Translations under genes and position numbers: made by a program
Assembly (NCBI GenBank): GCA_903937385.1
Contig: CAIZZF010000012.1
Coordinates: 1-45,019, forward strand
Direction of reading: 5' to 3'
Origin: an uncultured Holophagaceae bacterium
GTDB lineage: Bacteria; Acidobacteriota; Holophagae; Holophagales; Holophagaceae
DNA length: 45,019 nt
Shown here: piece after piece, positions 37,710 to 37,899 of the stretch
Position numbering within the stretch: the stretch's first letter is position 1
How the letters are laid out: every line of letters starts with the position of its first letter
Notes under the pieces: model-generated
Told to the model about the DNA's origin: nothing
What the model saw: the letters and a program-made list of their open reading frames with translations, nothing else
The model's database searches: none

Positions 37710-37739
37710 TTGACGATCTGTGAAGCGGGCCGATAAAGT
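37710..37739 (+). promoter_or_regulatory. Promoter of the asn leader and asnB
   Basis: TTGACG (37710-37715) and TAAAGT (37734-37739) with an 18-base spacer. The predicted start near 37746 leaves room for an AAGG ribosome site (37745-37748) about 7 bases before the leader ATG at 37756. The same TTGACG hexamer is used in front of leuA. Confidence 0.55.
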
Positions 37740-37755
37740 GACTCAAGGCGATTCA

Positions 37756-37842
37756 ATGACCACTCCCCTCCCGCGGCCCAACCGCAATAATAATCGGCTC
37801 CCTCGCGCGGATCGTGCGTGGGCCGGTGAGGGCATCTCCTAG
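37756..37842 (+). CDS. Asparagine-rich leader peptide of asnB
   Basis: A 28-residue frame: M-T-T-P-L-P-R-P, then N-R-N-N-N at positions 9-13 (AAC CGC AAT AAT AAT), then R-L-P-R-A-D and a further 9 residues to TAG. It lies between a promoter and an intrinsic terminator ahead of asnB. The segment GCGCGGATCG (37805-37814) inside it can pair with CGATTCGCGC (37866-37875), the 5' arm of the terminator, giving a 10-bp antiterminator with one G-U pair. This is the layout of a tRNA-sensing attenuator for asparagine. Stalling at Asn codons is inference; the frame, terminator and pairing are seen. Confidence 0.7.
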   Translation: MTTPLPRPNRNNNRLPRADRAWAGEGIS

Positions 37843-37862
37843 ATTCCTGCTTCCCCGGACCA

Positions 37863-37899
37863 CCCCGATTCGCGCAAGCGGATCGGGGCATTTTCTTTT
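37863..37899 (+). terminator. Attenuator-type terminator upstream of asnB
   Basis: An 11-bp stem, CCCCGATTCGC (37863-37873)/GCGGATCGGGG (37878-37888), closed by a GCAA (GNRA) tetraloop with one G-U pair, followed by CATTTTCTTTT. It ends 9 bases before the asnB ATG, so it stops transcription in the leader rather than after a gene. The 5' arm is shared with the leader pairing described for 37756-37842. Confidence 0.85.

Follow-up and report, generated by a model that had tools for sequence, protein, structure and literature searches.

Ribosome-mediated attenuation by leader peptides is long established, and attenuators of this kind control the trp, his, leu, ilv, phe and thr operons of Proteobacteria. 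Several of these Proteobacterial attenuators (trp, his, leu, ilv, phe, thr) are described in PMC2659441. Leader attenuators of trp, ilvB and leuS in Actinobacteria have been predicted by comparison (PMC1262725) and have the same anatomy as the element described here; the main text of that study holds no asparagine case. A His leader peptide before hisS/hisZ in bacilli (PMC2965389) likewise lies outside Proteobacteria and Actinobacteria, and differs from the present one in gene and amino acid. Firmicutes possess Asn-specific T-box riboswitches, which sense the charging of Asn-tRNA and control asparagine genes. For the Acidobacteriota, almost no attenuator with a known function was on record in 2010 (PMC2965389).

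The region in front of asnB that we analyze here very likely acts on asnB as a ribosome-mediated transcription attenuator responsive to charged Asn-tRNA, a reading for which no expression data exist. Like the Proteobacterial attenuators, it presents a short leader open-reading frame with codons for the product amino acid, an alternative antiterminator, and an intrinsic terminator before the gene. Unlike them, it shows Asn specificity, an Acidobacteriota host and a cassette that is reused across pathways. It differs also from the T-boxes, which bind the tRNA directly and need no translation, in that it would read its signal through a leader frame. A first-pass annotation of this DNA had stated that it knew of no Asn-codon leader for asnB. 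In the open-access literature that we searched, no Asn leader-peptide attenuator was found, with most subscription journals outside the scope of the search. To our knowledge, Asn, Pro and Gln specificities have no precedent in leader-peptide attenuation and would be new. The mechanism is old; the Asn specificity and the shared, re-addressable cassette are probably novel.

The window, which is the whole stretch of DNA that was analyzed (45,019 nucleotides), forms contig C12 in an assembly of 3.68 Mb. We assign it to Geothrix, a genus of the Holophagaceae in the phylum Acidobacteriota; Geothrix paludis, G. fuzhouensis and G. rubra are among the named records retrieved by similarity to its asnB. 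The features of the locus and of the related cassettes are collected in Table 1.

Table 1. Features of the asnB leader region in the window, and cassettes of the same kind elsewhere.
Feature	Location	Strand	Remarks
Promoter-like -35/-10 pair before leader and asnB	37710..37739	+	TTGACG-18-TAAAGT, consensus match; TTGACG at 37710, TAAAGT ending 37739, spacer 18
Leader ORF, 28 codons	37756..37842	+	MTTPLPRPNRNNNRLPRADRAWAGEGIS, then stop; kept in 37/38 genus regions
Sensor codons N-R-N-N-N	37780..37794	+	Asn codons 9, 11, 12, 13 = AAC, AAT, AAT, AAT
Antiterminator 5' strand, within leader	37805..37826	+	GCGCGGATCG...GTGGGCCGG
Possible protector-hairpin arm, GAGGG	37828..37832	+	Complementary to CCCTC at 37800-37804 or 37766-37770; weak
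Antiterminator 3' strand	37855..37875	+	CCGGACCAC.. with the 5' arm of the terminator and the first bases of its loop
Intrinsic terminator	37863..37899	+	11-bp stem, GCAA loop, T-rich tract; stem-loop 37863-37888 = CCCCGATTCGC-GCAA-GCGGATCGGGG
asnB, glutamine-hydrolysing asparagine synthase B, 569 aa	37909..39618	+	NF006949 836 bits, cut-off 499 (curated model)
pheA, own genome (L226)	G000 C8:68503-68632	-	Phe leader MSTSRRFFFFSFRTSGARLSGV and terminator
proB/proA, own genome (L227)	G000 C26:159189-159325	+	Pro leader MTVSVSSDPRPSHPTPMVGSKGV and terminator
ilvA, own genome (L228)	G000 C3:24219-24338	-	Ile leader MAATSPIILSISIPQGG and terminator
trpE, own genome (L229)	G000 C13, about 106811-106963	+	Leader MKLSALSIYQGLPSGGSWWRTGSDGSLREA and terminator
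DAHP synthase type I	L181, L183, L184		R1 cassette upstream
DAHP synthase class II	L190, L195		611 and 607 bits, just under cut-off 614.7
pheA	L189, L192, L199		R1 cassette upstream
proC	L191, L193, L194, L196		L191, L193 by model; L194, L196 by likeness of protein start only
proB/proBA	L197, L198		R1 cassette upstream
Asparagine synthetase A-like, AsnRS-related kind	L180, L185, L187		91-110 bits, far under cut-off 309
Ammonium transporter (amt)	L188, G070 C1:4418502		QQQQ leader, R1-type cassette
589-aa ORF	L186, G071 C114		Cassette leader MSLVHPQIKRNTNLPRVDRAWAG

The first-pass annotation had proposed a 28-codon leader with N-R-N-N-N at codons 9-13, a promoter-like pair just upstream, a GNRA-capped terminator whose T-run ends nine bases before the asnB ATG (37909), and asnB as the downstream gene. 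All four held, the identity of the gene by the NF006949 model. The promoter-like pair matches at 9 of 12 positions (shuffles mean 0.0, sd 0.2), and the pattern TTGAC..TAnnnT recurs in 37 of the 38 asnB upstream regions of the genus. The Shine-Dalgarno sequence of the leader, as judged by eye, is weak. Not one of 2000 shuffles gave a frame before the terminator with four Asn in seven codons; for the terminator, with its 11 pairs, GNRA loop and T-rich tract, shuffles gave a mean of 0.2 (sd 0.6). The upstream neighbour, tdh, is divergent and is transcribed away from asnB, which makes it improbable that the terminator belongs to a gene on that side. The genome has a single copy of asnB of the window type, with one further and weak match. 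It also encodes an AsnRS (438.7 bits, cut-off 342.6), and charged Asn-tRNA can therefore depend on free asparagine. A scan of the window against Rfam returned no family at the gathering score, the T-box riboswitch included.

In the mechanism that we propose, transcription would start some 10 bases before the leader frame, with a ribosome trailing RNA polymerase through the 28 codons. When Asn-tRNA is scarce, the ribosome would stall at codons 9-13, and the strand 37805-37826 would remain free to pair with 37855-37875; the terminator would be blocked and asnB transcribed. When Asn-tRNA is plentiful, the ribosome would reach the TAG at 37840 and cover much of the 37805-37826 strand; the terminator stem-loop would form and transcription would end. 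The start of transcription, the translation of the leader, the stalling and the asparagine-dependent termination are all inferred from sequence alone, and neither expression measurements nor mapped transcript ends or ribosome positions stand behind the attenuator reading. Sequence and computation do show that the parts are present and conserved, that they can pair in alternative ways, and that in the sister cassettes the codon run fits the product. An attenuator should have an upstream promoter, a run of product codons and an intrinsic terminator between leader and gene, all of which are present. It should have as well a mutually exclusive antiterminator, free when the ribosome stalls and masked when it stands at the stop codon; this is met, by computation only.

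The pairing of 37805-37814 with 37866-37875 over 10 bp, also proposed in the first pass, is present; its inner eight pairs are the best kept among relatives, the outermost pair is kept in a minority of leaders, and the helix is part of a longer predicted antiterminator. In the window, GCGCGGATCG and CGATTCGCGC form nine Watson-Crick pairs and one G-U pair. Across 42 Geothrix-type leaders the inner eight pairs are standard in every one, with the outermost pair (37805:37875) found in 15 and the next in 37. The helix is extended by GTGGGCCGG (37818-37826) opposite CCGGACCAC (37855-37863), for a predicted total of more than 20 pairs in the window. Two of the pairs in the extension are kept in 36 and 37 of the 42 leaders and the other six in all 42. 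Compensatory covariation in the Geothrix-type set is almost nil; its columns barely vary. An initial duplex test limited to the terminator arm gave a weak result (P 0.00-0.74); the test that took its place added 12 upstream bases and the loop to the arm. Pairing of the leader with region 3, compared to shuffles, gave P values of 0.003 for the window (L001), 0.024 for L141, 0.022 for L142, 0.003 for L161, 0.034 for L164 and 0.048 for L160; the combination of seven lineages gave a Fisher P of 1e-6. For the leaders of genus g9 taken alone, this pairing is not above shuffles (P 0.13-0.20).

In full-length RNA at equilibrium the terminator is favoured in nearly all states, with L141 and some g9 leaders as exceptions. 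Equilibrium folding thus fails to separate the states. The model therefore needs kinetic control during transcription, and for the same reason we folded RNA truncated just before the 3' arm of the terminator, with the stall codon given as the best among the product codons. In the window the terminator 5' arm is then paired upstream at 0.90 in the stalled state vs 0.28 with the ribosome at the stop codon. The difference exceeds 0.2 in 49 of 50 leaders of all classes, the exception being L231. Part of it arises from the masking itself, for which the comparison with shuffles serves as the control: chance alone pairs the arm at about 0.5, the P values of individual loci lie between 0.007 and 0.64, and in several of these loci the arm pairing is not above shuffles. 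The fold energy of the stalled state in 15 loci, some of them related, gave a Fisher P of 3e-11 against shuffles. That a shortage of Asn-tRNA stalls the ribosome and favours the antiterminator, as the first pass had inferred, is supported by comparison and folding, with the regulation itself still an inference. A protector (1:2) hairpin, which would let the terminator form in RNA that is not translated, is possible, but its prediction is not convincing. In one computed fold, which shows a competing structure, the GAGGG arm takes 37766-37770 as its partner; 37800-37804 is complementary only. The hairpin is unproven because untranslated RNA, without a ribosome, often prefers the antiterminator.

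The asnB query matched in 43 of 47 genus genomes (E up to 0.001; some via paralogues only), from which 38 upstream regions were usable. The truncated asnB genes of G014 and G022 (L016, L041) were left out, and L059 and L065 have almost no upstream sequence. The leader is present in 37 of the 38 regions, and each of these 37 has a terminator between the leader stop and asnB. In the family-wide set of 44 Geothrix-type leaders the last Asn of the run is always kept (AAT in 40, AAC in 4), and the residue before it varies among Asn, Pro, Thr, Ser and Ile. Synonymous AAC/AAT changes at the kept Asn codons suggest that the leader is translated. AAT, a locally rare codon, accounts for 133 of the 213 Asn codons in 56 leaders vs 20 of 211 in 25 long window frames picked by length and GC pattern. 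The P value of this usage overstates independence, as the leaders are related to each other, and the weaker structure of AAU-rich RNA could conceivably be another reason for it. The one genus region without the leader belongs to G033 (L037), a complete genome in which leader and terminator are both absent and the promoter stands directly before asnB. This arrangement has the look of a natural deletion, and the element is therefore dispensable.

Among the other genera of the Holophagaceae, an Asn leader precedes asnB in 10 of 13 regions. Five of these leaders are of the Geothrix type (L042, L043, L054 in g6, L047 in g4 and L048 in g10). The other five, all in g9 (L049-L053), differ in peptide (e.g. 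MPSASVNFANNNPPPGWSW), in terminator (GCCCCACG stem) and in pairing. The first pass had asked whether Asn codons, terminator and pairing are conserved together. In Geothrix and in three genera close to it they are, as far as the core of the pairing is concerned; in g9 the leader end, antiterminator and terminator are all replaced, and the Asn cluster alone is retained. The element is missing before asnB at four loci of the family (L037, L044, L045, L046), and only two Asn are present in the cluster of L034-L036, L052, L072, L146 and L160. Across the class, matches to the asnB query (E up to 1e-100) are confined to this family and occur in 55 of 93 genomes. With close kinship among many rows, the counts do not represent independent events. 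The asnB of L072 (G022) lacks residues 1-108 and lies right behind its two-Asn leader, either by deletion or by an assembly error. L066 and L070 carry a Geothrix-type leader with asnB, and one of the two records is titled Gemmatimonadetes; this is a transfer or a misnaming.

Phylum-wide, asnB matched in 48 of 396 genomes (E up to 1e-80); at E up to 1e-150 it matched in 25 of 148 genomes in the class of G298 and in 3 of 41 in that of G147. Asn-rich leaders before a terminator are found in other classes of Acidobacteriota at L141, L142, L160 and L164. Weaker cases are L146, with two Asn, and L143 and L161, which have poor T-tracts and fail the criterion of our mechanical scan. The deep-lineage leaders have no evident likeness in sequence to the Geothrix leader beyond the Asn codons. 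The Asn run was reached in none of 2000 shuffles for L001, L048, L050 and L164, and had P values of 0.0005 (L141), 0.008 (L142), 0.023 (L146) and 0.054 (L160). With 15 duplicate rows removed, the mechanical scan covered 147 distinct upstream regions of asnB type, and 56 of them have a terminator. A frame with at least three Asn in seven codons occurs in 48 of these 56, and with at least two in 55. Outside the Holophagaceae-type set, 6 of 91 regions have a terminator, and an Asn leader accompanies it in five of the six at the lower threshold and in three at the higher. The separate leader patterns were chosen by eye among the frames. Asn-rich frames before asnB in Gammaproteobacteria and Bacteroidota (L087, L097, L119-L121, L126) were rejected, as no terminator was found, as was L110 of Neomarinimicrobiota, whose terminator-like site lies upstream of the frame.

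A covariance model (R1) built from 42 asnB leaders only identified, in 77 genomes of the family, 43 asnB leaders and 37 other places (E up to 1e-4). We examined 20 of the 37, and 17 precede amino-acid biosynthesis genes. The codon run in these cassettes is Phe before pheA, Phe/Tyr/Trp before DAHP synthase, and Pro before proB and proC, as exemplified by FHRYYWF, CTFFYYFGF, FRFFAFRF and PRPSLPPP beside NNRNNN. In g5 and g10 an Asn cassette precedes an unrelated asparagine synthetase, which argues that the Asn run follows function and not the gene family. In 49 leaders (amt excluded), none of 20,000 shuffles of the leader labels reached the observed match of codon run to product; of 720 class permutations only one did, the true one. 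The leaders entered in the class table had been selected by eye among the frames before verification. The amt cassette, a single occurrence, might be a glutamine sensor. The 589-aa frame of L186 has no match in NCBIfam (E 1e-10) or Pfam (E 1e-4). In the genomes of L180, L185 and L187, asnB was not found in G053 and G054 (only 76% complete) and is present in G071. One of the 20 places, L182 (G069 C3), is disrupted: its Asn leader, with the terminator broken off, adjoins a MarC-type gene, and the asnB of this genome is located elsewhere without a leader. Rearrangement or an assembly error would account for L182.

Three other explanations merit consideration, and we regard each as very unlikely. 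The conserved peptide end RA(D/N)RAWAGEG could itself arrest the ribosome, with free asparagine or some other signal as the trigger, and the C-terminal residues of the leader are indeed strongly conserved in the 44 leaders. However, the bases that encode this end are the antiterminator strand, and RNA pairing accounts for their conservation. The motif is missing from the leaders of g9, f25, f26, f73, f76 and f17, all of which have Asn codons, and it occurs also before DAHP synthase, where aromatic codons replace Asn. Alternatively, the leader might sense the general speed of translation, or another amino acid such as Arg, whose codons are frequent in it and are at some positions as well conserved as those of Asn. 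Against this, the Arg fraction stays at 0.06-0.18 across all nine biosynthetic leader classes (the one amt leader has 0.24); the Asn fraction, by contrast, is 0.18-0.19 before asparagine synthetases, at most 0.05 before other biosynthetic genes and 0.08 before amt. The deep lineages, moreover, share Asn and not Arg. Lastly, a fixed partial terminator could stand beside a short frame that arose by chance, with asnB controlled at its promoter. The complete genome G033, with its promoter beside asnB and neither leader nor terminator, would suit this account, but conservation, the shuffles and the codon-product match speak against it.

The attenuator that reads Asn-tRNA remains our preferred explanation. 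If it is true, asparagine joins the amino acids sensed by leader peptides, and attenuators of Acidobacteriota are given functions. A bolder reading, which we think is more probable than not, is that Acidobacteriota have a modular family of attenuators, in which a cassette was copied before many amino-acid genes and its codon run swapped. The Asn versions would then serve two unrelated asparagine synthetases, and other versions Phe, the aromatic amino acids, Pro, Ile and possibly, at the ammonium transporter, Gln. Such a family would be a natural series of one RNA cassette re-addressed by its codon run, and the evolution of attenuator specificity would become directly testable, with G033 as a natural case of absence.

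A broader model (R2) gave many more matches, of which 20 further places were examined. In the genome of the window itself it disclosed four more cassettes, before pheA, proB, ilvA and, as a partial match, trpE. The arm pairing of the ilvA and trpE cassettes (L228, L229) is not above shuffles. A sixth match in this genome (E 0.0096) proved to be the reverse strand of the asnB leader, and L251-L253 (E above 0.1) were rejected by eye for their look of coding sequence. The trpE leader was picked among the upstream frames and has a Trp-Trp pair (SWWRTGSDG); the gene product scores 391 bits as TrpE (cut-off 518). This Trp leader resembles the trp leaders of rhizobia and Actinobacteria.
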